DNA of 64,000 nt from Streptomyces adelaidensis (GTDB lineage Bacteria; Actinomycetota; Actinomycetes; Streptomycetales; Streptomycetaceae): NCBI RefSeq assembly GCF_016598475.1, contig NZ_JAEMUX010000025.1:1-64000 (forward strand). The letters are read 5' to 3'. Below, in pieces: positions 42,428 through 61,273 of this stretch (positions within the stretch are counted from its first letter, which is position 1; every line of letters begins with the position of its first letter). Under the pieces are notes generated by a model that made no database searches, had not been told where the DNA came from, and saw only the letters and a program-made list of their open reading frames with translations. The translations under genes and the position numbers were made by a program.

Positions 42428-42452
42428 AGGCGGGCCTCCTCAGCGGGCGGGC

Positions 42453-43379
42453 CTAACGGATCGTCCGGCCCGTGTGGTGCAGGAACACGTCGTCGAGCGT
42501 CGGGGAGTCGACGGTCACGGACCGGACGGGGACGGTGAGTTCGGCGCAGAGCCGGGGGACGAGCGCGGCGCCGTCGGGCGCGCGGAGGCGTACGCCGTCG
42601 GGGCCGGTCTCCGTGGACAGGCCGAACGACCGGCGTACGGTCTCGGCGACCCGCTCGTCGTCATCGGTGCGCAGGGTGACGAGGTCGGCGCCGATGACCG
42701 ACTTCAGCTCCCGGGGCGAACCCTCCGTGACCAGTTCCCCGTGGTCGATGATGGCGATCCGGTCGCAGTGCTCGGCCTCCTCCAGATGGTGTGTGGTCAG
42801 GAAGACGGTGAGGCCGTGCTCCCGGCACAGCAGCCGAAGGTGCTCCCACACGGCGGCCCGGGTCTGCGGGTCGAGACCGGCGGTCGGCTCGTCGAGGAAG
42901 AGGACCCGGGGGCCGTGCACCAGCGCCCGGGCGATCTCCAGGCGGCGCCGGGTGCCACCGGAGAGGGTGCGGACTACGCCGTCGGACCGGTCGTCGAGAC
43001 CCATCAGGCCGAGCAGCGCCGTACCGGCCGCGCGGGCCGCCGGACGCGACAGCCCGTACAGCTCGGCCTGCAGCCGCATGCTCTCCAAGGCCGTCAGATC
43101 CTGGTCGAGGGTCTGCTCCTGGAAGACGACGCCGATCCGGCGCCGTACCAGCGCGGCCTCCCGGACCACGTGCGCCCCGGCCACCCACGCGTCGCCCAGG
43201 GTGGGGCGCAGCAGCGTGCAGAGCATGCCGATGGTGGTGGTCTTGCCCGCCCCGTTGGGGCCGAGGAAGCCGAAGATCCGGCCCGCCGGGACGGTGAGGC
43301 CGAGCCCGACCACGGCCTCGCGCGTCCCGTAGAGCTTGCTCAGATCCTCGGTGCGTACGGCGATGTCGTCGCCCGGCAC
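42453..43379 (-). CDS. Lasso cluster ABC transporter ATPase
   Basis: A 308-residue DrrA/CcmA-type ATPase. It has Walker A GPNGAGKTTT, the Q-loop GVVFQEQTLDQDLTALES, signature LSGGTRRRLEIARALVHGP, Walker B VLFLDEPTAGLD, and H-loop TTHHLEEAEHCD, followed by a C-terminal extension typical of daunorubicin-resistance transporters. Together with the ABC-2 permease downstream it makes a two-component exporter. Many lasso clusters use one fused protein (LasD) instead. GGGAGG precedes the GTG start. It lies 17 nt downstream of the B2 gene in the operon. Confidence 0.9.
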   Translation of the reverse strand: MPGDDIAVRTEDLSKLYGTREAVVGLGLTVPAGRIFGFLGPNGAGKTTTIGMLCTLLRPTLGDAWVAGAHVVREAALVRRRIGVVFQEQTLDQDLTALESMRLQAELYGLSRPAARAAGTALLGLMGLDDRSDGVVRTLSGGTRRRLEIARALVHGPRVLFLDEPTAGLDPQTRAAVWEHLRLLCREHGLTVFLTTHHLEEAEHCDRIAIIDHGELVTEGSPRELKSVIGADLVTLRTDDDERVAETVRRSFGLSTETGPDGVRLRAPDGAALVPRLCAELTVPVRSVTVDSPTLDDVFLHHTGRTIR

Positions 43380-43396
43380 GACGGCCTCCCGCCCCG

Positions 43397-43819
43397 TTAC
43401 GAGCGCGCCCGCGGCGCGATGGTGATGAGCGGCGGGATGCCCGGGGTGAGCGGCAGATCGTCCACCGGACGGCCCTCCGCCTCCACCCACGCGTGGGCGA
43501 CCATCGGGACCGTACGCATGCCCGTGCGCCAGGTGGGCCAGGTGCCGCGGGCACGGCAGAGCAGCGCGGTGGCGATGGAGCGCGGCAGGCAGCCCTGTCC
43601 GGCGCAGCGCACGCTCACCGCGACCACCTCGGCGCGCGCCCTGGCGGCCTCGGCGTAGGTGGCGGGCCGGCCGCCGCGCGAACAGGCGGTCAGGAGCTGC
43701 CGGATGCGCAGCGGGGAGAGCCGGCCGACGAGGTGTGCGGCGCCCACCGCGAGCAGCGGCAGCGGACGCCGGTGCGGGGGCAGCCGGCGCCGGGTCTGGA
43801 AGACGGAGGGGACGCTCAC
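43397..43819 (-). CDS. Lasso peptide B2 leader protease (transglutaminase-like)
   Basis: A 140-residue lasso B2 protein, the cysteine protease that removes the leader peptide. The catalytic set is C77 (VRCAGQGCLPRSIATALLCRARG), H109 (VPMVAHAWVEAEG) and an Asp at 120 or 121 (RPVDDLP). The N-terminal 60 residues form the usual helical extension. It starts 4 nt inside the end of the RRE gene (overlap), so the split B1/B2 form is used here as in most actinobacterial lasso systems. Confidence 0.93.
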   Translation of the reverse strand: MSVPSVFQTRRRLPPHRRPLPLLAVGAAHLVGRLSPLRIRQLLTACSRGGRPATYAEAARARAEVVAVSVRCAGQGCLPRSIATALLCRARGTWPTWRTGMRTVPMVAHAWVEAEGRPVDDLPLTPGIPPLITIAPRARS

Positions 43820-44100
43820 GCGACCACCAGCCCGTTGCCCGCCAACTCGGCGGCCAGCGCCTCGACATCGGCCGCCGCCCGCTCCTCGGAGACCTCGTAC
43901 CGCTCCACGAGGACCCGGGCGGCGTCGGCCGGCGAGGAGCCGTCGAGCAGGGCCCGCAGGATCAGGGCGCCGCTCGCGTTCAGCTTGAAGTACCGGCCCT
44001 TGCGTTCGTCGAGCAGGACCATGCCGTCCTGGACGTCGGAGACGGAGACGTGCCGCCGCAGTGTCATGCTCCGTGCACCCGTGCCCATGCCCATGCCCAT
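43816..44100 (-). CDS. Lasso peptide B1 RiPP recognition element (PqqD-like)
   Basis: A small PqqD-fold protein (94 residues from this start) that binds the precursor leader and hands it to B2 and C. The core HVSVSDVQDGMVLLDERKGRYFKLNASGALILRALLDGSSPADAARVLVERYEV matches the lasso B1/RRE pattern, with the three-strand sheet and helix that hold the YxxP motif. The first 12 residues are an odd GMGMGTG run from a CATGCC repeat. AAGGAG precedes ATG at 44100. An ATG at 44130 that overlaps the cyclase stop, or one at 44067, could also be used. Confidence 0.9.
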   Translation of the reverse strand: MGMGMGTGARSMTLRRHVSVSDVQDGMVLLDERKGRYFKLNASGALILRALLDGSSPADAARVLVERYEVSEERAAADVEALAAELAGNGLVVA

Positions 44101-44126
44101 GTGCTTGTTTCTCCTTCCGGTTGTGG

Positions 44127-46058
44127 TCATGCCGCCGCCTCGCTTCCGTTGACGGCCGTGGACGCGGTCGGTCCGGCGTGAGCGCGCAGCCAGGTCTCCA
44201 CGGCCAGGGTCGCCTCCAGGGTCACGGGGGAGAGCCGGGGCGGGAACATGCTCAGGCAGGCCCGGCGCAGGGCGTCGGCGTCGACGAGGCCGAGGGTGGC
44301 GAGGAGCGGCCGGTCGAGCAGTTCCGCGAGGTCCGCCCGGCGGGTGCGCAGCCCGTGCTGCATCTCGGCGCTGTACTCGCCCTTGGTCCTGCGGGCGAGC
44401 AGCTCGGCGGGCACCACCTGCCGCATCCCCATCGCCCGCACCAGCAGCGGCTTGTACACGAAGGGGGTGGTGCGCTCGTCCAGCCGTACGGACAGGGCCG
44501 CCTCGACCACACTGTCGTCGTAGAAGGGGTAGTGCGTCGGCAGACCGGCCTCGCTGGTGACGCGGGTGAGCTGGCGGGCGAGCCGGGCGCCGTTGCGTAC
44601 GGACCACAGGGCCTCGTGCTGTCCACGGGTCGGCGCGAGGGGCTCGGCTTCGAGGGCGCTCTGCCAGAGCAGTTCGCGTACGGCCGCCGCCGCGTCCGGG
44701 CCGGCCCAGGGCGGCAGTTGGGGCCGCAGCGGCTGCCAGCCCAGGGCGGGTGTGCCGTCCAGGGCCAGTACGGGTGACAGGTCCCGGGCGGAGTCCGCGA
44801 GCCAGCGCCCGTACGAGCGGCGGTCGGCCAGCGCGCGCAGCGTCGGGAGCAGCCGCCAGCGCTGGGTGGAGACGGTGGCGCGCAGATGCGTGAGGGCGGT
44901 GCGCGGGCGGGCGCGGAGTGTGGTGTGCAGATACGGCGTGCGCGCGGACAGGATCTGGTCCGCGCCCTCGCCGGACAGGTGCAGCCGTGAGCCCAGGGCG
45001 GCCATGCGGCGCGCGGTCTCGGCGAAGGGGGCGCGGACCCGGCCGCCGGTGAACGGCTCGTCGACGCCCTCGCCGGCATGGAGCACGCCGGTGTAGTGGG
45101 GTGGGAGGTCGGCCGTCGGCAGCACGTGGTGCTCGGTGTTCGGGTCGGGGAGGTGGGCTGCGGCGCGGTGGGCCCAGGCGAGGTCGTCGTTGGCGGGGTC
45201 CGCGCCGGTGAGGGTGAGGGCGAGCAGCCGGGCGGGGCCGCGCGCGGCGAGGAAGCACAGGGAGGTGGAGTCCAGCCCGCCGGACAGGTCCGAGCTGATC
45301 ACCCCGCCGCTGCCTCCGGCCCTGCCTCCGCCGCTGCCTCCGCTTCCGCCCCCGGCCGTGCGCAGCGCCACCGCGTCGGTGAGCGCCCCGGCCAGCAGCT
45401 CGGCGCCCTCGCCGAGGGAGAGTTCCGGCTCGGGGGGCTGCCACCAGCGCCGGGTACGGGTGTTGCCTGCGGCGTCCGTCAGCAGGGCCGTACCGGCCGG
45501 GACCGCGGAGACGCCCCGCCACAGGGGGCGTTCGGCGAGGGGGTGCGGGATGAGGGGGTCCATGAGCCGGAGCGCCACCAGGCGTTCGTCGATCCCGGCG
45601 TCGACGGCCGTGGCCAGCACGTCCGCGCGGTCGCAGGCGACCACGACACCGGCCAACCGGGCGGAGAACAGCCGCCGCAGCCCCGAGGCCGTGCCCTGGG
45701 AGCGCAGCCGCCCCGACTGCGACGCCAGCAGATGGCAACTGCCGGTCGGCCCGGCGTTCGGCCCCGCGCCGATCCGGTCGAGCGAGCCGAGCGCGTCGTC
45801 GTGCCGGACGAGTGCGGTGAGGCGGGGTCCGGTCAGCGGGGAGAGCCCCACCACCGCCACCCGGCCGCCGCCGACCGTCGCGACCGTCACCTCGTCCTCG
45901 GCCCACTGCCCGACGAGCCACGGCCGCCCGGACGCGTGCTCCACGAGCCGCGTCGCCGTCGTACCCAGCACGGCGGCCGCCGCCCGCGCCGCGTCACAGT
46001 CGGGCAGCACCGCGAACCAGCCGCTGCCCGGCGTCGTACATTCCGGCATCACGCTCAT
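44127..46058 (-). CDS. Lasso peptide cyclase (asparagine synthetase homologue)
   Basis: A 643-residue AsnB-like macrolactam synthetase (lasso C protein). It uses ATP to adenylate the side-chain carboxylate of the ring Asp/Glu (here Glu8) and lets the N-terminal amine of Gly1 attack it. The N-terminal glutaminase-like domain (about 1-215) lacks a catalytic Cys at residue 2, as expected in lasso cyclases. The synthetase domain has the PPi loop SGGLDS (259-264), HLSGEGADQIL and a C-terminal RRTKGEYSAEMQHGLRTRRADLAELL. A Gly/Ser-rich insertion (GGGSGGSGGGRAGGSGG) precedes the PPi loop. The start is chosen before MPEC; AGGGGG lies close upstream. Confidence 0.93.
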   Translation of the reverse strand: MSVMPECTTPGSGWFAVLPDCDAARAAAAVLGTTATRLVEHASGRPWLVGQWAEDEVTVATVGGGRVAVVGLSPLTGPRLTALVRHDDALGSLDRIGAGPNAGPTGSCHLLASQSGRLRSQGTASGLRRLFSARLAGVVVACDRADVLATAVDAGIDERLVALRLMDPLIPHPLAERPLWRGVSAVPAGTALLTDAAGNTRTRRWWQPPEPELSLGEGAELLAGALTDAVALRTAGGGSGGSGGGRAGGSGGVISSDLSGGLDSTSLCFLAARGPARLLALTLTGADPANDDLAWAHRAAAHLPDPNTEHHVLPTADLPPHYTGVLHAGEGVDEPFTGGRVRAPFAETARRMAALGSRLHLSGEGADQILSARTPYLHTTLRARPRTALTHLRATVSTQRWRLLPTLRALADRRSYGRWLADSARDLSPVLALDGTPALGWQPLRPQLPPWAGPDAAAAVRELLWQSALEAEPLAPTRGQHEALWSVRNGARLARQLTRVTSEAGLPTHYPFYDDSVVEAALSVRLDERTTPFVYKPLLVRAMGMRQVVPAELLARRTKGEYSAEMQHGLRTRRADLAELLDRPLLATLGLVDADALRRACLSMFPPRLSPVTLEATLAVETWLRAHAGPTASTAVNGSEAAA

Positions 46059-46105
46059 TGCCCCCTGGGTTTTGCTTTGGTGTGCAGAAACATCCCGGCG
46101 ATTGC

Positions 46106-46178
46106 TGAACCACTGAACCACTGAACCACTGAACCACTGAACCACTGAACCACTGGATTGCCGAATTGCCGAATTGCC
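46106..46178. repeat. 8-bp tandem repeats between lasso precursor and cyclase genes
   Basis: Six direct copies of TGAACCAC (46106-46153) are followed by three copies of an 8-bp unit related to CGAATTGC. They lie in the 258-nt gap between the precursor stop and the cyclase start. The repeat strand is lower in GC than its surroundings. An 8-bp unit suggests slippage; it does not alter a coding frame here but would change the spacing in the mRNA. Confidence 0.85.
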
Positions 46179-46283
46179 GAATTTGCGAAGTTTCGAATTG
46201 TCGGACTGGCGAATTGCGGCCGCGGCCGGGAATCGCTGCATCCGGCCCGAAAGGGCGGCGGGCATCGATCCCGGCCGTGACCC

Positions 46284-48937: not shown

Positions 48938-49504
48938 TCAGTTCCGGGTCTCTCCCAGCGCTGAGCGCAGCCAGTCCAGAGACCCGGTCGCCAGGACCGC
49001 GTCGGCGAGTTCGTTGGCCGACTTGGTGGTGTGCCGACGGCGGCTGTTGCCGATCCAGCGCTGTGCGTTCTCGTAGCCCTGGGCCTTGTACTCGATGCCC
49101 TGGATCATGCATTCGAGTTTGTCGGCGTCCCGGGCGCAGATCGCCTCGGCGGATTCCTTCGCCTCGTATTCGGCGACGAGTTCCCGCACGGCTGAGGCCA
49201 GGATCTCGGGCATACCGGCGACCTGGTCGGCGGTGACCGCCTGAGGGTCCGCCTCGGTGGCGTACTTCTTCCCGAGGTGGTTCACGTCACCGGTCCTCGT
49301 CTCCTGGGAGTCGTGCCACACCGCGAGGTACGCGGCCCGCGCGGGGTCGGCGCCTTCGAGATTCGCGGTGATCGTCGCGAGGAGAGCGGTGCGCCAGGAG
49401 TGCTCCGCCACCGACTCGGGGTCGCGTACGCCGGCCATCCACCAGCCGGTGCGCTTGGTCTGCTTCAGCGTCCCCGCCTCGTACAGGAAGCGCGCGAGGG
49501 GGGT
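48938..49504 (-). pseudogene. HD-domain hydrolase (YfbR-like), 5' end lost
   Basis: The frame encodes an HD-superfamily phosphohydrolase related to YfbR/HDDC2 5'-nucleotidases: PLARFLYEAGTLKQTKRTGWW, the metal ligands in SVAEHSWRTALLA and WHDSQETRTGD, then ADKLECMIQGIEYKAQGY. About 188 residues remain, nearly full length. No usual start codon lies before PLARF, and upstream of about 49510 the frame is antisense to an ImmA fragment. The gene has therefore lost its start and promoter, unless a CTG start is used. Confidence 0.6.
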
Positions 49505-49526
49505 GCCCAGCGGCCCGATCCCCCAT

Positions 49527-50195
49527 GTGACTCGACTGCTCGAAGCCCATGGCGCCGTCGTCCTAGAACTACCGGCTATGTCCAAACGAGTGGACGCCTT
49601 CTCGCACTGGTACGGGAGCAGGCCGTTGGTCTTCCGGAACCCTGCCAAGAACGACAAGGCTCGGTCGCGATTCGATGCGGCTCACGAGGCTGGGCACTTG
49701 GTCATGCACCTTGACGCTGAGCCCGGCAGCCGCATTATCGAGAACCAGGCGCACGACTTCGCCGCCGAGTTTTTGATGCCCAGAGCCGAGATCCTTGCGG
49801 AGCTGCCGCAGAGGCTTGACTGGGAGGCGCTCTACGGGCTGAAGCGACGTTGGGGGACTTCCCTCAAGGCTCTCATCTACCGTGCCCATGCTCTCGGTGC
49901 CTTCCGGGACACGACGTACAAGCGCGCCATGATGATGCTCTCTCAGCACGGCGATCCGGAGCCTTGCGACCTCGGACCTCGTGAAGCGCCCCTGCTGCTG
50001 GAAAAGGCGGTCCGCCTCTGTGAGGAGACGGGCGTTTCATTCGATGATCTTGTCTCCCGCTCGGGCCTGCCGTTCGAGCTCGCGAACGAGGTCTACGCGA
50101 CCGCGACCATGACGAGACCACGCCTCGCCCTAGATGCATCCGAGGAGGGTGAGGCGTCGCCGGACGCCTCTGAAGTGCTGACGCTGAGATGTGAA
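49527..50195 (+). pseudogene. ImmA/IrrE metallopeptidase fragment
   Basis: About 220 residues of an ImmA/IrrE-family peptidase: DKARSRFDAAHEAGHLVMHLD with the HExxH zinc site, then ENQAHDFAAEFLMPRAEILAELP and RWGTSLKALIYRAHALG. Such proteins usually carry an XRE helix-turn-helix of about 80 residues in front; that part is absent here and replaced by the head-to-head HD gene. There is no ribosome-binding site. The 3' end runs without a stop into the IS110 flank, so the element may have landed in its tail. Confidence 0.7.
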
Positions 50196-50218
50196 TCCGG
50201 CGTCCCACGGGCATCTTT

Positions 50219-50247
50219 GAGTGCGGCCTCGCTGCGAGGCCGCACTC
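50219..50247. terminator. Terminator at the 3' flank of the IS110 transposase
   Basis: GAGTGCGGCCTCG pairs perfectly over 13 bp with CGAGGCCGCACTC around a 3-nt loop. It lies 15 nt past the transposase stop and at the end of the ImmA fragment. Confidence 0.75.
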
Positions 50248-50261
50248 CTGTCGAGCGCGGT

Positions 50262-51512
50262 TCAGGCGGGTCCGGTTCCTGCAGGTTCTATGGTGACGTC
50301 GAAACCGAGTGCTTCGAGCTGGGCGGTCAGCCGCCTGGCGCGTTGCTCGGGGCTGAATCGCCTCGCTGCCCAGTCGGGGCCCAACTCCCGGTAGGGCACC
50401 TGGTCGTGGACGATGTGCCAGTAGGCAACGACGATGTCGTGACGGGTCGCACCGAGAGCCTTGAAGCCGCCCGCCCGGCCTTTGATCTGCATGTGATGCG
50501 CGTGCAGATAGGTGCCCTTGGCCTTTACCGCGCCCCAGGCCGCTTCGGTCAGCGCGGCCTTCAGCCACTTCGGACCGGGCCGGCTGCGTCCGCCCCTGCG
50601 CTTGCCGCCCGAAGCATGATTACCCGGACACACCCCCGCCCAGGAGGCGAGATGAGCCGAGGACGGGAACGCCGACATGTCCAGACCGATCTCGGCGATC
50701 AGCACCTGGGCGACCTTCGCCCCGACCCCGGGGATGGTCTGGATCAGCTCCAGGACCTCCTGGTGCGGGGCAAGCCGGATCGCGATCTCCGCATCGTAGG
50801 CGTCGAGCCGCTGCTCCAGCCCGTCGATATGCGCCAGCAGACCACGCACGATGACGCCGTGGTGCTCAATACGGAAGCGGTGCTCGAGAGCCTCCTCCAG
50901 GGCCTCCCGCTTCGAGCGGAGGCGTCCCTTGGCCAGCGCGGCCAGCTCCACCGGCGAGGTCACCCCGTCCAGCAGCGCCTCCAGCACGGCCCGCGCCGTC
51001 TTCGACCACACCTGCGAGGCCACCGAGGTCAGCTTGATACCGGCGTCCTGCAGCACCTTCTCCAGCCGCTGGACCACCCGCACCCGCTCCTGGGACACCG
51101 CCGTACGCGCCCGCGTCAGATCCCGCAGCTCACGAAACTCCTGCACCGGCACGAACGACGGCCGCACCAGACCGCACTCCAGGATCCGGGCGATCCACAC
51201 CGAATCAGCGACATCGGTCTTGCGGCCGGGCACGTTCCTCAGATGCGCCGCGTTCACCAGCCAACAGGTGAACCGCCCCTCCAACGAGGCGAAGACGGGC
51301 TTCCAGTACACCCCCGTCGCTTCCATGCCGACCAGCTCCACGCTTTCGCAGGCCAGCCAGTCACCCAGGTCGGCCAGCGCGCGCACGGTGGTCTTGAAGG
51401 TCCGGGTCTCCGTCGCCCGTGAACCTCTGCGCTGCCCCGGTGCGCGGACCGTCGCCACCGCCGTGTCCCGGTGCACGTCCAGTCCGGCACACCGCTCGAA
51501 GATCACCTGCAT
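50262..51512 (-). CDS. IS110-family transposase/recombinase
   Basis: A 416-residue DEDD transposase. The N-terminal RuvC-like domain has GLDVHRDTAVAT (Asp), ELVGMEATGVYWKP (Glu) and RKTDVADSVWIARIL (two Asp). The C-terminal Tnp_IS110/Transposase_20 part has LIQTIPGVGAKVAQVLIAEIG and the essential serine in SWAGVCPGNHASGGKRRGGR. It recombines DNA guided by an RNA transcribed from the element's non-coding end. GGAGGAGG lies 7 nt before ATG. No frameshift or stop; probably active. Confidence 0.95.
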   Translation of the reverse strand: MQVIFERCAGLDVHRDTAVATVRAPGQRRGSRATETRTFKTTVRALADLGDWLACESVELVGMEATGVYWKPVFASLEGRFTCWLVNAAHLRNVPGRKTDVADSVWIARILECGLVRPSFVPVQEFRELRDLTRARTAVSQERVRVVQRLEKVLQDAGIKLTSVASQVWSKTARAVLEALLDGVTSPVELAALAKGRLRSKREALEEALEHRFRIEHHGVIVRGLLAHIDGLEQRLDAYDAEIAIRLAPHQEVLELIQTIPGVGAKVAQVLIAEIGLDMSAFPSSAHLASWAGVCPGNHASGGKRRGGRSRPGPKWLKAALTEAAWGAVKAKGTYLHAHHMQIKGRAGGFKALGATRHDIVVAYWHIVHDQVPYRELGPDWAARRFSPEQRARRLTAQLEALGFDVTIEPAGTGPA

Positions 51513-51720
51513 GCCCGGCCTCCTCCGTGACAGCACCCATCAACGTGCCGTCCGGAAGGGGCCTACTGATCCAAAGAGTCTGAGATTCGCGCTCGCAGCA
51601 GCAGTCAACAATCCCTCAAGCCCCAGCGTCATACTTTTCCCCGGACTCGTGGATACCAAGCGTCACCGACGTCTGCCCGGACCGCACCCCACCAGCATGC
51701 GAACGGCGCCACAGAGCACT
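51513..51720 (-). ncRNA. Candidate IS110 bridge RNA region
   Basis: The non-coding DNA 5' of the transposase is where IS110-type (not IS1111-type) elements encode their bridge RNA. I cannot fold it reliably by eye, and I do not know the exact ends. The rest of the 410-nt gap to the next gene (51721-51922) shows no recognisable feature. Confidence 0.35.
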
Positions 51721-51922
51721 CAACCCGCGTGAGGAAGCGAACTAGCCACCGACCGGGAGCTGTCGCGCGCCCCGGATTCTCATCCCGCCACGGTGCCGGC
51801 GCACAGCGCCGTCATGGGTACTTTTCCCAGGTTGATGTCCGCTGCTGTCTGGCGCTCGTCTACGCGTCATGGGATCAGCCGAAGGTGAACCGCCCCACGT
51901 CGAATGGAGCCATGGGCGCGGG

Positions 51923-52462
51923 TCAGTGGCTGGCGCGGATCATTACGGTGAGGACCGGCGAGGCCGGTGAGGGCTGGCTCTGCCCAATGCCCTCGTACCC
52001 CCACGACTCGTAGAGCGCGTGAACCTTCCCTTCCCCAGCGGCCGGGTTGACCATAAGCGTGACGTACGGTTCCTCACAGGTGGCGAGGAGGGCGTCGTGG
52101 ATGCGGCGGGCGGTGCCGGTCTTCCGCCAAGTCGGCCGGACGCCGATCTCCTTCAAGGCCACGGCCGGATGCTCGGTGTACTTGTCCGCCGGCGTCGGGC
52201 TGGTGCGCTGCCAATACCGATCGCCGTGTTCGATGGTGTTGCCGTAGGCGTAGCCGACCGGATGGCCGTTCGCGTATGCGAGGACGGCCGTGAATCCGGG
52301 CTCGGTGCTATGCCGGTCGATGCGTTCGCCGAACGCGGTGACCGCATAGTTCGGCAGGTGGAGCAGTGGGGCGCGCACGTCGGCGTACACGTCGAGGAGG
52401 TCGCCGCGGGCGGTGTCGAGGGTGGTGAACGTGCGCAGTTCGATGGCAGGTGCCGTGGTCAT
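51923..52462 (-). CDS. GNAT N-acetyltransferase
   Basis: A 179-residue GNAT-fold acetyltransferase: LRTFTTLDTARGDLLDVYADVR start, AVLAYANGHPVGYAYGNTIE strand, and acetyl-CoA loop VALKEIGVRPTWRKTGTARRIHDALLA (the R/Q-x-x-G-x-G/A type), then LMVNPAAGEGKVHALYESWGYEGIGQ. Its start overlaps the stop of the TPR regulator gene (ATGA), so they form one transcription unit diverging from the FxLD precursor. It may modify a cluster product, but this is only context. Confidence 0.85.
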   Translation of the reverse strand: MTTAPAIELRTFTTLDTARGDLLDVYADVRAPLLHLPNYAVTAFGERIDRHSTEPGFTAVLAYANGHPVGYAYGNTIEHGDRYWQRTSPTPADKYTEHPAVALKEIGVRPTWRKTGTARRIHDALLATCEEPYVTLMVNPAAGEGKVHALYESWGYEGIGQSQPSPASPVLTVMIRASH

Positions 52463-53446
52463 GCGGCCATCCTCCAGGCGGCGGTGTGCTCGGTCCAGGT
52501 CTGCACGCTGGAACCGCCCGGCGCGATGGCGCGCAGCGCAGCCCCGAACTCCTGCAGCATGCGCGTCACCCGGGCGTGCTGGGTAGCGGCCTCGGCGGGG
52601 ACCTTCATCGCGGTGGCCGTGGCGGCGTCGGGTGCGCCCTGGGCGAGTTGGGCGTGGGCGAGCCGGGTCGTAGTGATGGCCCGGGACCGGATCATGTGGG
52701 GCCGGAGGGCGGACAGGCAGCGGTGGGCGTGGTACTCGGCGGTGGAGTAGTCGCCGAGCGCCAAGTGCGCTGACAGGGCCAGGGAGTCCAGCTCGGCCTG
52801 GTCGTAGAAGGCGAGCATCCACACCGGTCGGTAGTCGGCGGGGTCGGCGCGCAGCATGGCGTCCTGGGCCTGCTCGAAGGCACGACGGGTGCCGGCGCGG
52901 TCCTGTGCCGACCCGTGAATGGCCCCCTGGCGAGCCAGGCCGAGAGACGCGAACAGGGGGTCTCGGCGTGTGAGGTGCAGGTTGCGGGCGACGTCGTTGG
53001 CGGCGAACGCGTCGGCAGGTCGGCCCATGTGGCGGTACATGGTGCCCGCGTGGCTCCAGATGCGGAACTTGATCTCCTGGTCGCCGGACATCTCAGCGAG
53101 GGCCTGCGCCTCACGCATGTGCGCCTTCGCAACATCGTAACGGCGGCCGTCGATGGCCGCCCACATCGCCGAGGAGCGGAACGCGGCTGCGGAGGCGTAG
53201 AGGTTGCTGCGTACACGCTGGCTGGCTGCCGGCGTTCTGGAGGTTCAGGGCCTCGTCGGCCAGCGCGGCGGCCCGCTGCTCGATGCCGAGTTGGCCGCCG
53301 TGGCGGTGGTCGCTGGCGATGATCTCGGCGAAGCGCTTCTGTAGACGGTCGACGTCGCTCATGCCGATGCGGCGCGATGCGGTGCCGGGCGAGGCTGCTG
53401 CGGCGGCAGCCGCTGCGATGCCGCCGACGAGGGAACGGCGCTTCAT
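52459..53446 (-). pseudogene. TPR-type regulator, HTH domain lost and frameshifted
   Basis: Two frames make up one protein: 53446 to about 53222 (KRRSLVGGIAAAAAA ... RAAALADEALNLQNAGSQ), and about 53220 to 52459 (RVRSNLYASAAAFRSSAMWAAIDGRRYDVAKAHMREAQALAEM to the end). The break is a 4-bp insertion in a GCTG run (53217-53228). The intact form would be a helical TPR-like region like the C-terminal part of the 3077 regulator, where the equivalent MRRRTLLAAAG follows a 105-residue HTH. That HTH is missing here; the sequence runs into the FxLD precursor on the other strand. Both defects argue that it is inactive. Confidence 0.75.
53217..53228. repeat. Triple GCTG run at the regulator frameshift
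   Basis: Three consecutive GCTG units. Removing one restores a single continuous reading frame across the regulator gene, so this looks like slipped-strand expansion. Confidence 0.8.
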
Positions 53447-53543
53447 GTCTCTCGTTGAGATCGCCGACCCGGCGGGTCTGGTCAATCTGACCGACGACGG
53501 CTGCGGCTCCACCTGCGGAGCCTGCACCACCAACGTCGCCTGA
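53445..53543 (+). CDS. FxLD-family lanthipeptide precursor, leader truncated
   Basis: The 32-residue frame ends with VNLTDDGCGSTCGACTTNVA, the hallmark core of FxLD-type lanthipeptides. Ser22, Thr23, Thr28 and Thr29 can be dehydrated and Cys20, Cys24 and Cys27 can form lanthionine rings. The leader is reduced to SLVEIADPAGLVNLTD. The family-defining F-x-L-D motif and the preceding 15-20 residues are absent. The ATG overlaps, head to head, the first codon of the minus-strand regulator, so there is no room for a promoter or ribosome-binding site of its own. Probably a remnant. Confidence 0.75.
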   Translation: MSLVEIADPAGLVNLTDDGCGSTCGACTTNVA

Positions 53544-53632
53544 CCGGACATCAGGTCAATCCGGGCTGGTGCCGCCGCGCCCCGGCGTGGCGGCACCAGC
53601 CGCCCGTCCCCACACCTCCACGGAGGTAGTCG

Positions 53633-56600
53633 GTGATTGCTCCGCCCGCAGCGTTCCGAACCGGCACAACAACTCTCGTGCGCGCCGTAGCCCGGCCGTC
53701 GCTGCCGGTTCCTCCGTGCCCTGACCTCGATGACCGCTCGCCCAGCAGCTTGGCGGCCTGTCTCACGTGGCTGCGGGCGGTCTGGGCGAACCAGGATGTC
53801 GCCGAGGCACTGCAACACTCCAGCCCGGTCCTGGCCGCGCAGCTACAGGCCCTCTGCAAGGCCGAGCGGCCTCCTGTGCGGGACGTACGGCGCGCGGCGC
53901 AGTCCGAAGCCCGCTATCTGCTGCGGGCCGAGCACCGTGCTACGCCTTTCGGCCTGTTCGCCGGCGTGACCACCGCAGTGTTCGGTCCGCAGCCGCGTTC
54001 GGGCTGGGGCGTGGAGCATGTGGCCGTCGGCCGCGCGGGGGCAGAGTGGCTGGCCGCCGTGGTCGACCGGCTGGAGTCGTGCCCGGACCTCCTCGAACGG
54101 CTGCCCGTCGTCGTCAACAACACTGTGACCAGCCGGGGAGACCGGCTCATCGTGCCGTTCCAGCCCGACGTCCAGGACGACCGGACACGCGCGGTCGAAA
54201 CGTCCCTGGCCCTGACCGCACCGGTGCGCGCGATCCTCGCCGTGGCCCTGGCGCCGATCCAGGTCGGAATGCTCATGGACAAGCTTCGGGCAGAGTTCCC
54301 CGAAGCAGGGGCAGCAAGGGCGCGTGATCTGCTGGCAGAGCTGATCCGGCGGCGGGTGCTGATCACGAGCTTGCACGCGCCGAGCACCGAGACCGACGCC
54401 CTCGGCTATCTACTCGACCAGCTCGACGCGATCGATGCCGGAACCCTCGCTCCGGTCACAGAGACAGTGCGCGAGCTTCGCGCGGTCCGGGCGGGACTGG
54501 AAGAGTGCGCCACACGCGGTGGCCGAGACAGCGTCGCAGCACGGATGCGGGCCCTCGTGCCCAGCCTGCGCCGCCACCCCGTCGCGCTCGACCTGCGCCT
54601 GGACGCGCAGATCGTTCTGCCGGACGATGCAGCCCGGGAGATCGAGCGTGCGGCCCTCATCCTGACCCGGGTGAGCACCCGCCCGTACGGGACCGCGGCG
54701 TGGGGCGAGTACCACCAGCGGTTCTACGAGCGGTATGGCATCGGCACCATGGTGCCGCTCCGAGAGGTCGTGGCGGACAGCGGCACCGGATATCCCGATG
54801 GCTACCCGGGCAGTCCGGCCGGCGCGCGTCGGCCTCGCGTCTCCGCCCGGGATGACGCCCTCGTACGGCTGGCGCAGACCGCCGTACTCGACGGCCGCGA
54901 CGAGGCGCTACTCACCGACGACCTGGTTGCGGCCCTGGACGTGGGGCCGGATGAGCCTCGGGTGCCACCGCACTTGGAGGTCGGTGTGAGGGTGTATGCG
55001 GCCGGCCTGGAGGAGTTGCAGCGCGGGCGGTTCCGGCTGGAGGTCGTGAGCGTGTCCCGAGGCGTCGGCGTCTCCACGGGCCGGTTCCTCAGCGTGCTGG
55101 CCCCCTCCGACCGCGAGGCTCTGGCCACAGAACTCGCCGACCTCCCGACGGCGGACAGCAACACCGTGCCCGCGCAGCTCTCTTTCCCGCCCCTGCTCCC
55201 CGAGAGCGCCCACGTCACCCGCGCCCCGCAGGTCCTGCCCACCGTGATCAGCCTCCAGGAACACCGCGCCCGGCAGGACGCTGTCCTCACCCCGGCGGAC
55301 TTGGCGGTGGGGTGTGACGGCCGCCGCATGTATCTCGCCGCCCCTGACCGCGGCCACCGTGTCGAGGCCGTCGGGGTGCACGCGTTGAACCTGCGCACCC
55401 ACACTCCGCCGCTGGCGCGGTTCCTCACAGAACTGTCCCGCGCCCAGTGCGCGCCGGTCACCGTGTTCGACTGGGGCGCCGCCGCGGCGATGCCGTTCCT
55501 TCCACGCCTGCGGTACGGGCGCACCGTGCTGGCCCCGGCACGCTGGCGGCTGGAGGCGTTCGAGCTGCCCGGCCGCGCCCGTCCTCGGGCCGAGTGGGAC
55601 GCCGCGCTCACCGGCTGGCGGGATCGGCGGCGGCTGCCTCGCCGCGTCCACCTCGTGGAGGACGACCGACGCCTCTTCCTCGACCTCGACGAGGCCGGCC
55701 ACCGGACGCTCCTGCGCCAACACCTCGACCGTACGCACCTGGCCGTACTCGTCGAGGCCCCGAAACCGGAGGCGTACGGCTGGTGCGACGGGCGAGCACA
55801 CGAGGTCGTAGTGCCCCTCAAGTCGACCCGGCCGTCGACGTGGCCGCCCCTGCCCGCGCCCACGCAGGCCCGTCTCCTCTGCCCGGCCCAGATCCAGACC
55901 CCTGCTTCCTCCCCCGTACTTCTGGCCGCTCTGTACGGAGATGCCCGCCTCCAAGACACCCTGCTTTCCCAGCACTTGCCCGTCCTACTCAAACAACTCG
56001 GCAACCCACCATGGTGGTTCATCCGCTTCCGTGACCCGGACCAACACCTTCGCGTACGTATCGCACTCCCTGCCCCGGAAGCATTCGCCGAGACGGCCCA
56101 TGTGGTGAGCGCCTGGGCCGACGAGCTGCGCGACGCCGGCCTGCTGACCGATCTGCGGTACTCAACCTCGTACCGCGAGATGGGCCGCTGGGGCTCCGGC
56201 GCCGCATGGGAGGCGGCCGAGGCGGTGTTCCGGGCGGACTCACGCGCCGTCCTGACCCAGCTCGCGCAGCCGCAGCGCCCCGGCGCGCGCACGCTGGTGG
56301 CCGCCCATACCGTCGCCGTCGCCTCCGCGTTCCTCGGCAGCACCGGAGCCGGGATGCGGTGGCTGATCGACCACATCCCGGCGACAGCCCCCCCGCCGGT
56401 TCCGCGCCCGCAGTTCACCGAGGCTGTACGGCTCGCCAATCCGTGCGACGACTGGGCGGCGCTGCGCCGTGTCCCAGGCGGAGACGCCATCGTGTCGGGA
56501 TGGGCAGACCGGGATACGGCACTCGCCGCGTACCGACCGCACCTGCCGGGCCCGGACACCCAGGGCATCGCCGTCGACGACGTCCTGACCTCCCTGCTGC

Positions 56601-56716
56601 ACGTCCACTTCGTGCGGCACATCGCCGTGAACTTCCCGGAAGAAGAGGTGTGCCTCTACCTGGCGCGCGCCGCCGCCCTGGCCTGGACCGCCCGTACCAC
56701 CGGGAGGACCTCATGA
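53633..56716 (+). CDS. Lanthipeptide dehydratase, LanB type
   Basis: A 1027-residue class I lanthipeptide dehydratase. It transfers glutamate from Glu-tRNA to Ser/Thr of the precursor and eliminates it to give Dha/Dhb. The N-terminal glutamylation domain starts near 60 (RRAAQSEARYLLRAEHRATPFGLFAGV) and runs to about 690. The C-terminal elimination domain (SpaB_C/thiopeptide-type, about 760-1020) contains WWFIRFRDPDQHLRVRIALP and YSTSYREMGRWGSGAAWEAAEAVFRAD. Length and domains are complete. GGAGG lies 6 nt before GTG. The LanC gene overlaps its stop. Its natural substrate is the FxLD precursor 90 nt upstream. Confidence 0.93.
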   Translation: MIAPPAAFRTGTTTLVRAVARPSLPVPPCPDLDDRSPSSLAACLTWLRAVWANQDVAEALQHSSPVLAAQLQALCKAERPPVRDVRRAAQSEARYLLRAEHRATPFGLFAGVTTAVFGPQPRSGWGVEHVAVGRAGAEWLAAVVDRLESCPDLLERLPVVVNNTVTSRGDRLIVPFQPDVQDDRTRAVETSLALTAPVRAILAVALAPIQVGMLMDKLRAEFPEAGAARARDLLAELIRRRVLITSLHAPSTETDALGYLLDQLDAIDAGTLAPVTETVRELRAVRAGLEECATRGGRDSVAARMRALVPSLRRHPVALDLRLDAQIVLPDDAAREIERAALILTRVSTRPYGTAAWGEYHQRFYERYGIGTMVPLREVVADSGTGYPDGYPGSPAGARRPRVSARDDALVRLAQTAVLDGRDEALLTDDLVAALDVGPDEPRVPPHLEVGVRVYAAGLEELQRGRFRLEVVSVSRGVGVSTGRFLSVLAPSDREALATELADLPTADSNTVPAQLSFPPLLPESAHVTRAPQVLPTVISLQEHRARQDAVLTPADLAVGCDGRRMYLAAPDRGHRVEAVGVHALNLRTHTPPLARFLTELSRAQCAPVTVFDWGAAAAMPFLPRLRYGRTVLAPARWRLEAFELPGRARPRAEWDAALTGWRDRRRLPRRVHLVEDDRRLFLDLDEAGHRTLLRQHLDRTHLAVLVEAPKPEAYGWCDGRAHEVVVPLKSTRPSTWPPLPAPTQARLLCPAQIQTPASSPVLLAALYGDARLQDTLLSQHLPVLLKQLGNPPWWFIRFRDPDQHLRVRIALPAPEAFAETAHVVSAWADELRDAGLLTDLRYSTSYREMGRWGSGAAWEAAEAVFRADSRAVLTQLAQPQRPGARTLVAAHTVAVASAFLGSTGAGMRWLIDHIPATAPPPVPRPQFTEAVRLANPCDDWAALRRVPGGDAIVSGWADRDTALAAYRPHLPGPDTQGIAVDDVLTSLLHVHFVRHIAVNFPEEEVCLYLARAAALAWTARTTGRTS

Positions 56717-57309
56717 CCGCCCACCCCGCGCTCGACCTGGTCGACGCCGTCGCGTCCCAGCTCGCCGACCCCGAAACTGCGTACCTCGGGGCCCGGGCGA
56801 CCTCCTCGGACTGGCAGCACCTCGCGTACGGCCCTCCGGGCATCGCGCTCCTGCACATCGAGCGGGCCTCGAAGGGCCTGGGCCCGTGGCAGCGGGTCCA
56901 CGACTGGCTCGCCGCCGCCTCGCGGGAGCCGTTCACCAGTGGCCCCGACAGTCATCCCTTCTACGGGGCGTCCGCCTTCGCCCACGCCCTGGCCTGCGCC
57001 GCCGACCAACTCCCCAATTCCTACCAGCGCGCCCTGAACACGATGGACCGGCAGATCGAGATCGACGCCGTACGCCGCCTCGACGCCGCACATCGCCGCA
57101 TCGATGCCGGACGCCTGCCTGAGCTCGCCGAGTTCGACGCTATCCGTGGCCTCACCGGATACGGGGCCTATCTCCTGCGCCGTGACCCCGGCAGCTCCAC
57201 GATGCGCGCCATCCTCGACTACTGCGTGCGCCTCACCGAACCGATCACTCAGGGACGACCAGAGCGCCCTGTCCAACATCGCACGAGAGGTAATCATGGG
57301 AACAAATGA
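56713..57309 (+). pseudogene. LanC lanthionine cyclase, C-terminal half missing
   Basis: The first 178 residues match the start of a LanC-like cyclase (WQHLAYGPPGIALLHIERASKGLGPWQRVHDWLAAA, GPDSHPFYGASAFAHALACAA, RGLTGYGAYLLRRDPGSSTMRAILDYCVRLTEPI). A complete LanC has about 400 residues and binds zinc through two Cys and a His in its second half; none of these remain. After EPIT the frame changes to unrelated RPERPVQHRTRGNHGNK and stops inside the start of the methyltransferase gene. The deletion joins LanC directly to that gene. Confidence 0.75.
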
Positions 57310-58609
57310 CGAGACCGCGTTGCCCAACGAGGCACCGACCGCCGCCGATAGCGTCAGCGCGGTGAACACCGACACGATCGTCACCCCCACGTCGGACGCC
57401 GAGCGCCTCCGCAACGCCCTGGTCGACCAGCTCCGCGCGGACGGGCACGCCCACACGACCGCCGTCGAGACCGCGTTGCGCACTGTGCCCCGCCACGTGT
57501 TCGTGCCCGACGCGTCACTCGAAGACGCCTACGCCAACGCACCGGTGCACATCAAGTACGACACCGACGGCACGTCCATCTCGTGCGCCTCCCAGCCGGG
57601 CGTCGTCGCTCTCATGCTGGACCAGCTCGACGCTCGGCCCGGTGAGCGCGTTCTCGAACTCGGCGCCGGCACCGGCTACAACGCCGCTCTGTTGGCCCAC
57701 CTGGTCGGCGAGAGCGGGCACGTGACCACTCTGGACGTCGATGTCGACCTCGTGGAGGGTGCTCGCGCGCACCTCGTCGCCGCCGGGATCACCAACGTCG
57801 AGGCCGTGACCCGCGACGGGGCCCTCGGATACGCCGAGGGAGCGCCGTACGGCCGGATCATCGCCACCGTGGGCGCGCACGGCGTGCCGCACCCCTGGCT
57901 GCAGCAGCTCGCCCCCGGTGGACGGCTCCTCGTCCCCCAGCGACTCAAGGGCAGCGTCTCCCGCTCCATCGCCTATGAGCAGCGCGACGGCCGATGGGTG
58001 TCCCTCGGCAGCGAGATGAACACCTTCATGCCGCTCCGGCGCGGCATCGCCGACGACGACCGCCGAGTCATCCCGCTCAGCGCCGACGGCACCGTCCGGC
58101 TCCAGGCGCCCGCCGGGCAGAACATCGACGCCGACGACCTCGCCGGTGTCCTGGGCCAGCCGCGCACCGAGGAATGGACCGGCATGACGGTCCGCGCCAT
58201 GGAGTCACCGGAATGGATGGAACTGTTCCTCACCTGTTCCCTTCCCTCCGGCCTGATCCGGATGCTGTTCCCCCAGAGCGCCAAGGGCGGTCTGCTCACC
58301 GAGGACCCCTACCCCTCCTCAACCGCAGCCGTCGAAAAGGGCGCCGTCACCTACCTGGCGCGACGCCTGTCGCAGGAAAAGACCCCCGAGGGCGGCAAAC
58401 TCTGGGAGTTCGGGGTCATCGGCCACGGCCCCGGCAGCGACGAACAGGCCGCGAGGGTCGCCGACGCCATCCGCACCTGGGACCGCGAATACCGCGACCG
58501 CGAAGCCACGTTCGAAATCCAGCCCCTCGACGCGCCTGCCATCGAGCAGCGCCCCGGCCTCTTTGCTCTCGACACCCCACTGAACCGCATCGTCGTCGAC
58601 TGGCGGTGA
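57296..58609 (+). CDS. FxLD-system methyltransferase (PCMT-like)
   Basis: A 437-residue O-methyltransferase of the protein-L-isoaspartate methyltransferase fold, in the form found in FxLD lanthipeptide clusters. SAM motif I is ERVLELGAGTGYNA (117-130), preceded by the PCMT-type SISCASQPGVVALMLDQL and followed by HVTTLDVDVDLVEGA. The second half (about 240-437) is a cluster-specific extension. Related LanS enzymes methylate an Asp of the lanthipeptide, leading to succinimide and isoaspartate; the precursor here has two such Asp (DD before GCGS). The ATG is set by GAGAGG upstream. It follows the truncated LanC gene. Confidence 0.88.
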   Translation: MGTNDETALPNEAPTAADSVSAVNTDTIVTPTSDAERLRNALVDQLRADGHAHTTAVETALRTVPRHVFVPDASLEDAYANAPVHIKYDTDGTSISCASQPGVVALMLDQLDARPGERVLELGAGTGYNAALLAHLVGESGHVTTLDVDVDLVEGARAHLVAAGITNVEAVTRDGALGYAEGAPYGRIIATVGAHGVPHPWLQQLAPGGRLLVPQRLKGSVSRSIAYEQRDGRWVSLGSEMNTFMPLRRGIADDDRRVIPLSADGTVRLQAPAGQNIDADDLAGVLGQPRTEEWTGMTVRAMESPEWMELFLTCSLPSGLIRMLFPQSAKGGLLTEDPYPSSTAAVEKGAVTYLARRLSQEKTPEGGKLWEFGVIGHGPGSDEQAARVADAIRTWDREYRDREATFEIQPLDAPAIEQRPGLFALDTPLNRIVVDWR

Positions 58610-58696: not shown

Positions 58697-59821
58697 ATGG
58701 ACCCGCACGGACCCGTAGCCCAGCGCTACCCGCTCGTCGCCCGATTCCGGCCCGCCTGCCTGCCCCTGCCCGAGCGCGTGCGCGCGCTCGTCGACCTGGC
58801 CGACACCGCGCTGAAGACGACCGACCAGGGGCGCGCATCGGCCGTCTACAACCAGGCCGCGCTCATCGCCTCCGATCTCGACCTTCCCGACCTCGCACGC
58901 GAGCTGTGCCACCAGCACGCCGACGCCTACCTTCATGCCTGCCCCCTGCCCGGCATGAGCGCGATCCGAGGACTGGAACCGGTCGTCAACCTCGCCCGCC
59001 TCCGGATTCGTGCCGGCCGCGCCGATGAGGGACGTCAGCGACTGCTCGACCTGTATGAGGCCGTCGAGGCGGGCGCGGCTGCTCGGTTCGACGGTGTCGC
59101 GGTACCGGCGGACCTCACCGCGACCGACGAAGACCGCCACGAGGTCCGCGCGTGGCTGTGGCGTGTGCTCCTCGCCGACGGCACGCGCACTCTCACCACC
59201 AGGGGACGGTGGGCCGAGGCCAAAGCACACATCGAAGCTCACCGCGGCGTAGGCAAACGGATGCTCGACGGGCGCCAAGTCGCCGTACTCGCCGCCCTCG
59301 TTGTGGGTGACACGGCATCGGCCGCTGCCCTCCTCGCCGACACGATGCCTGGCGATCCATGGGAGCAAGCCGTCACGGCCTGCCTGACCGTCCTGTGCCG
59401 CCGCGCCGCCGGGCAGCCGATCGACGGCCACCTGGCGGACCTGGTGACGACCTACTCCGAGCGGAAGGCCGAACCTGGGATGACCGTCTTCGACATCCGG
59501 CTCGGACTTACCGTCCTTGACGCGATCGGATCCGCCGAGGCGCCCGGCGCGCGCCACATCGTCGAGGAACTGCACCGCAGGACGACGGACACCGAAGACG
59601 GCTACGCGGCCCGCGAGAACCTGGCGCACCCACTGTTCATCGCGCTCGCCACGGATCGGCAAGCACAGGAGTGCCGCGCTCTGGTGCGTTCCTGCGCCCT
59701 CGGGGCAGGGATGGTCCCCGATGATTTGCTAGGACAACTGACGGCTGCTCTACGCGCCGGAGACACCGTGATCCGGGAGAGTCTCGCGCGCCCCTTCGAT
59801 CCCGAACGTAAACCCCAATGA
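58697..59821 (+). CDS. TPR-like helical protein of the FxLD cluster region
   Basis: A 374-residue protein, almost entirely helical, with repeated 30-40-residue units (LADTALKTTDQGRASAVYNQAALIASDLDLPDLARELC, LEPVVNLARLRIRAGRADEGRQRLLDLYEAV). No HTH, signal or catalytic motif. Proteins of this kind occur beside FxLD lanthipeptide genes and NTP-binding regulators, but their role is not known to me. ATG follows GGGGGATCC. It is the last gene of the block; a terminator follows. Confidence 0.7.
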   Translation: MDPHGPVAQRYPLVARFRPACLPLPERVRALVDLADTALKTTDQGRASAVYNQAALIASDLDLPDLARELCHQHADAYLHACPLPGMSAIRGLEPVVNLARLRIRAGRADEGRQRLLDLYEAVEAGAAARFDGVAVPADLTATDEDRHEVRAWLWRVLLADGTRTLTTRGRWAEAKAHIEAHRGVGKRMLDGRQVAVLAALVVGDTASAAALLADTMPGDPWEQAVTACLTVLCRRAAGQPIDGHLADLVTTYSERKAEPGMTVFDIRLGLTVLDAIGSAEAPGARHIVEELHRRTTDTEDGYAARENLAHPLFIALATDRQAQECRALVRSCALGAGMVPDDLLGQLTAALRAGDTVIRESLARPFDPERKPQ

Positions 59822-59968: not shown

Positions 59969-61273
59969 TCAGGGCCATACCAAGCAATAAGGCTGATGCC
60001 CAGCCTCATGCAGCCGATGGCTGAAGTCCTGCCACTCGTGCAGCAGTTGGTACACGTTGAACGCGTCGCGGGGCCCGCCGCGGTCCGGGACCGTCGACCA
60101 GATGAAGGCGGCGGCGCCGACGGCTTCCTCGCCGATGCCGCGGAGGGGGTCGACGACGGTCATGGGGAGCTTGACGACGGCGTAGTCGGGGTGGAGGACG
60201 ACGAGTTCGAGCGGGGGGACCTTGTGGAGGGGGACGCCTTCGATGCCGGTCAGCACCATCGCGGCCATCGTCTCCGGCTTGATCTTGGTGAACATGCCGT
60301 TCATGCCGAGCTCGTCGCCGCCGAGTTCCTCGGGGCGCATCGAGATCGGGACGCGGGCCGCGGTCGCGCCGTCGGGCGCGCCGAAGTATTTGTATGTCAC
60401 CCCCACCCGACCACCATTCCTGCTCCCCGCCCGGAGCCGGTTGACCACGTGGTCGAGGCCGTCCGCATGGTCCGCTCCGGGCACGCGGTCCGCACTCTCG
60501 ACGCGGTCCGGGTGTTCGGTACGGTCCTTGCGGTCCGCGCGGCTCCTGCGCTCCGCGCGACTCCTGCGATCCACGAGGTCAGGCCGGTCCATCCGGTCCG
60601 TCTGATCCATTCCGTCCACACGATTGACACGATCCACATGATCGGCACGATCCATACGGTCCATACCGTCCATACGGCTGCGCCGCCCGATCCGCTCAGG
60701 GCCGCCGCTCTGGATCCGGTCGGGACCGCTTTCCGCGCGGTCGGAACCGCTCTGGATCCGGTCGGTCCCGGTCCCCGTTCCCGTCTCGGTCCCCGTCTCG
60801 GACCCGGTACGGTCGGCGTCGCCCTGCGCGCCGCGTCGGCGACGTGAGCGGGGCGAACCGTCCTCCTGCGGAGAGGTCTGCGGGGTCTGCTGATCGTGCG
60901 AAGCGTGTGTGCCGTGTGCACCCTGCGGACCGTACACGCCCGGCCGTCCCTGCGGAGCGTGCGGGGGCTGTGATGTAGGCGGTACCGGTGGGGGCGGGGG
61001 AGGAGGTGCCGGTGGTCCCGGCGGCGGTGCCGGCAGCGAACCCTGCGGGCCCGGCCCCGCCGGCCCGCTCACCTCACCCGGCATCGGCCCTGGCCCGGAC
61101 TTCGATCCCGGCCCACTCCGGTCGCGGTCGCGGTCGCGATCCCGCTCCTGCCGTGTCTCCGCCGCTTCCTCCGCTTCGCGCCGGTGCCTGCCCCGCCGGG
61201 CACGACGAGGACCGAGGTCACCGGTCCCTTCGCCCAGTCCGCCACCGCGATGCATATCTCCACCCGAACGCAT
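59969..61273 (-). CDS. Repeat-rich protein with conserved C-terminal domain
   Basis: A 434-residue protein. The N-terminal two thirds are low-complexity: an Arg/Asp run (ERDRDRDRDR), a polyproline tract (PPPGPPAPPPPPPPVPP), GTETGTGTGT, and a stretch of about 70 residues of MDRxDRxDRV repeats. The last 145 residues form a well-conserved globular domain (TYKYFGAPDGATAARVPISMRPEELGGDELGMNGMFTKIKPETMAAMVLTGIEGVPLHKVPPLELVVLHPDYAVVKLPM). I know close relatives only from actinobacteria and without function. The start is uncertain (ATG at 61255 possible). It is divergent from the hemL region. Confidence 0.75.
   Translation of the reverse strand: MRSGGDMHRGGGLGEGTGDLGPRRARRGRHRREAEEAAETRQERDRDRDRDRSGPGSKSGPGPMPGEVSGPAGPGPQGSLPAPPPGPPAPPPPPPPVPPTSQPPHAPQGRPGVYGPQGAHGTHASHDQQTPQTSPQEDGSPRSRRRRGAQGDADRTGSETGTETGTGTGTDRIQSGSDRAESGPDRIQSGGPERIGRRSRMDGMDRMDRADHVDRVNRVDGMDQTDRMDRPDLVDRRSRAERRSRADRKDRTEHPDRVESADRVPGADHADGLDHVVNRLRAGSRNGGRVGVTYKYFGAPDGATAARVPISMRPEELGGDELGMNGMFTKIKPETMAAMVLTGIEGVPLHKVPPLELVVLHPDYAVVKLPMTVVDPLRGIGEEAVGAAAFIWSTVPDRGGPRDAFNVYQLLHEWQDFSHRLHEAGHQPYCLVWP

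Follow-up and report, generated by a model that had tools for sequence, protein, structure and literature searches.

Organization of the locus

The DNA analyzed here (hereafter, the window) is a 64,000-bp stretch of Streptomyces adelaidensis, part of a 101,007-bp contig in a 9.32-Mb draft genome of 352 contigs. At 51.9-59.8 kb it carries a cassette with genes for a GNAT acetyltransferase, an NsdA-family regulator, an FxLD precursor, LanB, LanC, an FxLD-system methyltransferase, and a 374-aa protein. The cluster of Streptomyces turgidiscabies Car8 (L078) was used as the reference for an intact cluster, and the features of the cassette are as follows:

51923..52462, minus strand: GNAT acetyltransferase, intact, left end of the conserved cassette (Acetyltransf_1, 28.4 bits vs. 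20.7)
52459..53229, minus strand: TPR body of the NsdA-family regulator, second frame, equivalent to L078 residues 171-426 (NF053720, 158 bits; tblastn)
53220..53229, minus strand: regulator frameshift near 53226, where the window is 2 bases shorter than all six aligned relatives
53225..53449, minus strand: regulator remnant, first frame, equivalent to L078 residues 97-171, N-terminal part lost (NF053720 positions 106-191; tblastn)
53445..53543, plus strand: FxLD precursor remnant without leader, core kept, FDLD lost (32 aa, residues 28-59 of the 59-aa precursor)
53448..53449, no strand: joint of deletion 1, with 1,478 bp missing relative to L078 and ~1,665 bp relative to many others; 2-bp overlap
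53633..56716, plus strand: LanB dehydratase, full length, 1027 aa in one open frame (PF04738, 6.7e-208; PF14028, 1.7e-33; 91% to L078)
56713..57309, plus strand: N-terminal half of LanC, whose homology stops at ~57248 and is followed by an out-of-frame tail (LANC_like 7-155/350)
57248..57251, no strand: joint of deletion 2, with 1,484 bp missing relative to L078 and ~1,480 bp relative to many others; 0-4 bp overlap
57296..58609, plus strand: FxLD-system methyltransferase domain, cut off from a fused N-terminal elimination-like domain (TIGR04364 1-394/394)
58697..59821, plus strand: 374-aa protein, intact, right end of the conserved cassette (rightmost blast matches)

Among 79 loci with blast matches to the window (duplicate loci included), the leftmost match begins at 51900-51939 in 52 and the rightmost stops at 59780-59819 in 51, and few of the 79 match the window at all beyond 51.9-59.8 kb. 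Since the matches of most loci stop at the same ends, the cassette is found in varied surroundings. When, as a control for deletions elsewhere in the window, 12 stretches from three relatives were compared with it, only one 687-bp block aligned outside 51.8-59.8 kb. The 374-aa protein at the right end matched no Pfam or NCBIfam family.

Several other features lie nearby. An IS110-type transposase (50262-51536) sits inside a 1,635-bp stretch (50186-51820) that is missing at the matching place in S. flaveolus (L085) and adjoins the 3' end of an XRE-ImmA/IrrE gene. Only the C-terminal part of this gene is present (49495-50185), beside the cassette; its N-terminal half is unmatched in the window, and at the break (~49497) it is joined to a 5'-deoxynucleotidase-like region whose alignment is to a different relative, L088. 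Lasso-peptide-like genes occupy 41540-46265, namely a macrolactam-cyclase-like asparagine synthetase homologue (NF033561, 206.5 bits, under the cut-off of 300), a PqqD-like protein over its cut-off, and an ABC-permease-like protein under family cut-offs. On the other side, a 434-aa ORF (59969-61273, minus strand) contains a long low-complexity stretch rich in MDR-type repeats.

Comparison with related clusters

Of 295 genomes of the genus, 126, the window's own included, have a LanB relative at E 1e-50, and relatives occur at 48 loci of a named collection. The closest was S. turgidiscabies Car8, at 91% identity. We compared 74 loci, or 68 after removal of six that repeat a contig (L050, L051, L052, L055, L059, and L060); L125 (LanB 28%, no blastn match) is excluded from the counts of 68. 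This type of cluster is already known, and the locus is ordinary. It resembles L078 and other Streptomyces FxLD clusters, which run in the order regulator, HATPase, small ORF, precursor, LanB, LanC, and methyltransferase; compared with L078, however, the regulator of the window has lost its N-terminus, the precursor its leader, LanC its C-terminal half, and the fusion enzyme its elimination-like domain, and neither of the small ORFs is left. Alignment to intact clusters, as the first-pass annotation had proposed, resolved these losses into two deletions and a frameshift relative to L078.

Whether a relative crosses a joint was judged on blastn alignments of at least 60 bases. At deletion 1, none of the 68 loci has an alignment across the joint, and 47 have alignments that stop there from both sides. 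A 391-bp query over this joint matched 47 of 392 genomes (46 besides its own), and among the matches listed no other genome spans the joint. The deletion is ~190 bp longer when measured against many other relatives than against L078. What it spans in L078 begins with the regulator's first 96 residues and the divergent intergenic region; a 148-aa HATPase_c_2 protein and a 76-aa ORF follow, and then comes the precursor as far as residue 27, including its FDLD. Because the HATPase is covered to 85% in just 44 of the 68 loci, it is not universal; coverage of both regulator and precursor reaches 85% or more in 49.

The intact L078 regulator belongs to NF053720 ('NsdA family TPR-like'), and no Pfam family matched even this intact protein. 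The window aligns only to its residues 97-426, in two pieces that are 94 and 96% identical, so that instead of a full-length NsdA-family protein in a single frame we found profile positions 1-105 missing and the frame broken. The first-pass annotation had described a frameshifted regulator without its HTH. The frameshift near 53226 and the loss of the N-terminus both bear this out, and the lost part is presumably the HTH.

As for the precursor, its remnant is 97% identical to L078, with residues 29-59 unchanged. It exceeds the TIGR04363 cut-off of 30 bits (32.6-33.2 bits) by way of positions 8-37 of 37 only. The FxLD leader motif is absent from the remnant, which begins at L078 residue 28, and the description of a precursor without its FxLD leader was thus correct: FDLD and everything upstream of it in the protein are gone. 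A promoter scan of 53100-53700 found none, and none was expected either from shuffled sequences.

At deletion 2, again no locus among the 68 has an alignment across the joint, and 64 stop there from both sides. Relative to L078, the two deletions are near-equal in size (1,478 and 1,484 bp). In L078, LanC has its C-terminal half in the second interval, and a 693-aa fusion enzyme has most of its N-terminal domain there. LANC_like covers 5-350 in L078 LanC vs. 7-155 of 350 in the window, as expected from the earlier report that LanC had lost its zinc half, and identity to L078 is 80% over a stretch that includes the out-of-frame tail. The LanC of the window stops short of a full LANC_like domain and of its C-terminal zinc motifs; the WCYG and CHG motifs, whose role we take to be in zinc binding, lie inside the lost interval.

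The methyltransferase domain itself is complete (TIGR04364, 440.5 bits vs. a cut-off of 320, positions 1-394 of 394) and 91% identical to L078. The first-pass annotation had called the methyltransferase undamaged and had drawn the end of the cluster at 57309, i.e., 14 bases into the methyltransferase frame (57296-58609), which keeps an ATG preceded by GAGAGG (by visual inspection). This holds for the domain, but not for the protein. The L078 fusion matches TIGR03891 over residues 6-256, PF14028 over 6-254, and the methyltransferase over 291-692, and the window aligns to it only from ~residue 236 onward. No fusion of an elimination domain and a PIMT on one polypeptide is found in the window, where PF14028 is confined to LanB. 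PMC7268733 describes class I clusters in which an additional LanB elimination-domain protein occurs, frequently as a fusion with a PIMT, and it also reports methyltransferases of this kind that stand alone; L078 has exactly such an elimination-domain/PIMT fusion, whereas the window keeps the PIMT half only.

Taking a single open stretch covering at least 85% of the protein as the measure, the fusion enzyme is intact in 65 of the 68 loci, and LanC and the fusion are each intact in 64. The exceptions are L123, L071, L089 (frame break in LanC), and L061 (frame break in the fusion); on the 4.5-kb contig of L123, LanC coverage is 54% and the fusion was not found.

Constraint and age of the lesions

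LanB was said to have 1027 residues and no visible damage, and we agree: it is one open frame with both LanB Pfam domains, for glutamylation (PF04738, 2-649/649) and elimination (PF14028, 5-253/255). We compared substitution in LanB with that in the other stretches of the cassette by using 20 outgroup loci to assign each difference from L078 to one lineage or the other, excluding changes that could not be assigned. Synonymous/nonsynonymous changes and dN/dS are given below for the window lineage and then for the sister lineage; the P-values, from six tests, compare the two lineages and not one gene with another:

LanB: 41/39, 0.363; sister 50/42, 0.321; P = 0.76
Methyltransferase: 24/17, 0.245; sister 24/20, 0.288; P = 0.83
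LanC N-terminal half: 9/15, 0.600; sister 10/9, 0.324; P = 0.37
Regulator, small piece: 3/2, 0.228; sister 2/2, 0.343; P = 1
Regulator body: 19/3, 0.053; sister 12/9, 0.250; P = 0.045, towards more constraint
GNAT: 15/6, 0.14; sister 5/6, 0.41; P = 0.25

In none of the six stretches was dN/dS significantly raised in the window lineage. Substitutions at otherwise invariant columns, counted over loci L049-L059 and L078-L122 with repeats excluded, numbered one in LanB (median 2 of 51 sequences), two in the methyltransferase (median 1 of 52), two in the LanC half (median 0 of 51; the highest value reached), and none in the regulator body (median 0 of 48). Nominally, then, the LanC half appears relaxed and the other stretches do not, which would fit an older lesion in LanC. 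The simplest reading of these sequences would be that most lesions are young relative to the split from L078, in which case an open LanB is to be expected, used or not.

The dN/dS comparison had been put forward as a gauge of LanB and the methyltransferase. Neither value (0.36 and 0.25) is raised relative to the sister lineage, but we rejected dN/dS as a sign that LanB is used, since LanB (0.36) falls between two broken genes, with the LanC half (0.60) above it and the regulator pieces (0.05 and 0.23) below. As far as sequence can tell, an intact LanB is no evidence of use. The earlier suggestion of recent loss fared better, being in keeping with two clean joints, with remnants 91-97% identical to L078 (80% for LanC), with dN/dS that is not significantly raised, and with the single LanB substitution at an otherwise invariant column.

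Search for the missing parts

We searched the rest of the genome for anything that might stand in for what was lost. TIGR04363 gave one match above cut-off, the truncated copy, while five others fell short of it, none exceeding 14.1 bits; a 59-position profile that includes the window remnant returned, at E up to 10, the truncated copy only (best 150 of 216 candidates). With PF04738 (Lant_dehydr_N), the window LanB was the sole match (three of three candidates scored), and a LanB protein search found no second LanB among the best 2 of 19 candidates. Outside the window LanB there is no other PF14028 (Lant_dehydr_C) domain in the genome, and the elimination-like domain is thus not replaced. No stand-alone LanC scored above cut-off. 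The second LANC-like match above cut-off proved to be a class III LanKC (1087.7 bits vs. a cut-off of 575), and a weak LANC-like match on contig C326 (10.7 bits) fell below cut-off. The class III LanKC, on contig C320 (L077, 5128-8631), has a long Gly/Thr/Ala-rich stretch inside its C-terminal part. Neither a second FxLD precursor nor a second LanC, both of which the first-pass annotation had thought worth seeking, was therefore found above cut-off.

Translocation of the lost intervals was considered and rejected. The L078 sequence of interval 2 matched nowhere in the window's own genome (best 40 of 359 candidates), although the same query found the cluster in four of four other genomes, and that of interval 1 gave only five matches, of 48-59 bases (best 40 of 137 candidates).

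Interpretation

Our reading, with a probability of about 0.9, is that a class I (FxLD) lanthipeptide cassette of a type widespread in Streptomyces has recently been inactivated here. As comparison with relatives shows, two deletions, whose joints have overlaps of no more than 4 bp, together with a 2-base frameshift, destroyed both the regulator and LanC and removed the precursor leader with the DNA ahead of it, as well as the elimination-like half of the fusion enzyme. The earlier phrase 'decayed in three places' is right as a count of lesions, but the leader and the N-terminus of the regulator were lost in one event, deletion 1. LanB presumably escaped because it was placed between both deletions.

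In intact relatives, LanB would be expected to bind the FxLD leader and dehydrate Ser/Thr, after which LanC would form the thioether rings. The last step there may be that of a PIMT-like methyltransferase acting on a core Asp, as reported for OlvA/OlvSA. With no leader on its precursor, no zinc half in LanC, and no N-terminus in the regulator, the pathway of the window would be predicted to yield no product. The OlvA/OlvB/OlvC/OlvSA system of S. olivaceus is alike in having a PIMT-like methyltransferase, a class I cluster, and a conserved core Asp, and the account of OlvSA in PMC13001092 has it acting on peptide treated by LanB and LanC, and not on unmodified or merely dehydrated peptide. OlvSA as described there thus needs a LanC-cyclized substrate, whereas the cluster in the window is presumably unable to make one; by this analogy, the methyltransferase domain would be left without a substrate. 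LanB and the methyltransferase domain, both of which are open, could still be translated, and, given the reports of stand-alone methyltransferases (PMC7268733), the severed domain could be active.

The reading that comes closest to competing with inactivation, though an improbable one, is an assembly error, in which both intervals are present in the organism and were dropped from a draft of 352 contigs; the near-equal size of the two gaps relative to L078 would suit it. Against this, the overlap at the joints is 4 bp at most, which is too short for a k-mer joint, interval 2 is on no contig and interval 1 is represented by 48-59-base matches only, within the candidates given above, and a separate frameshift and a truncated neighboring gene are also present.

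Very improbable, in our judgment, is the first-pass suggestion that LanB and the methyltransferase are kept to modify a precursor encoded elsewhere in the genome. An open LanB with a window-lineage dN/dS of 0.36 and few unusual substitutions, and a complete methyltransferase domain, are what one would expect of it, but the truncated precursor is the only match in the genome, whether by the TIGR04363 cut-off or, among the candidates scored, by the 59-position profile, and the genome offers neither a second elimination domain nor, above cut-off, a stand-alone LanC, its other LANC-like protein above cut-off being a class III LanKC. In addition, the methyltransferase protein is itself truncated, and the broken regulator is under stronger constraint than LanB, so constraint cannot separate used from unused genes. 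There is just as little to recommend a variant in which LanB, possibly with the freed methyltransferase domain, would survive as an orphan pair of tailoring enzymes and work in trans on some substrate that has no recognizable FxLD leader. Least credible of all is that a new leaderless peptide comes from the rearranged cluster or that the LanC-half protein has a function, since, although the precursor remnant starts with an ATG at the joint and residues 29-59 are the same as in L078, the FDLD motif is gone, LanC is without its zinc half, and the joint is in no other genome among the matches listed.

Taken as an inactivated cassette, the locus would provide a clean example of the death of a lanthipeptide cluster, with four functions gone through two deletions and the largest enzyme spared by its position. 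It is also a caution: full-length LanB in a draft genome is no guarantee that the cluster works, and an FxLD methyltransferase domain that seems 'complete' may have been severed from the other half of a fusion enzyme.

Degenerate clusters in other genomes

Since the copies at L071 and in Streptomyces sp. NRRL F-5135 are also degenerate, decay of the FxLD cassette is not unique to the window. At L071 (genome G052), part of the precursor and LanB to ~residue 765 are present, with no LanC or fusion in 13 kb. Streptomyces sp. NRRL F-5135 has one copy (L089) in which all genes were found and the frame of LanC is broken, and a second, partial copy (L124) that starts inside LanB. Two otherwise complete clusters have a broken frame, in the fusion enzyme at L061 and in LanB at L117, for which sequencing error is possible. 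In two distant relatives (L074 and L075), three precursor-like matches lie ahead of LanB.
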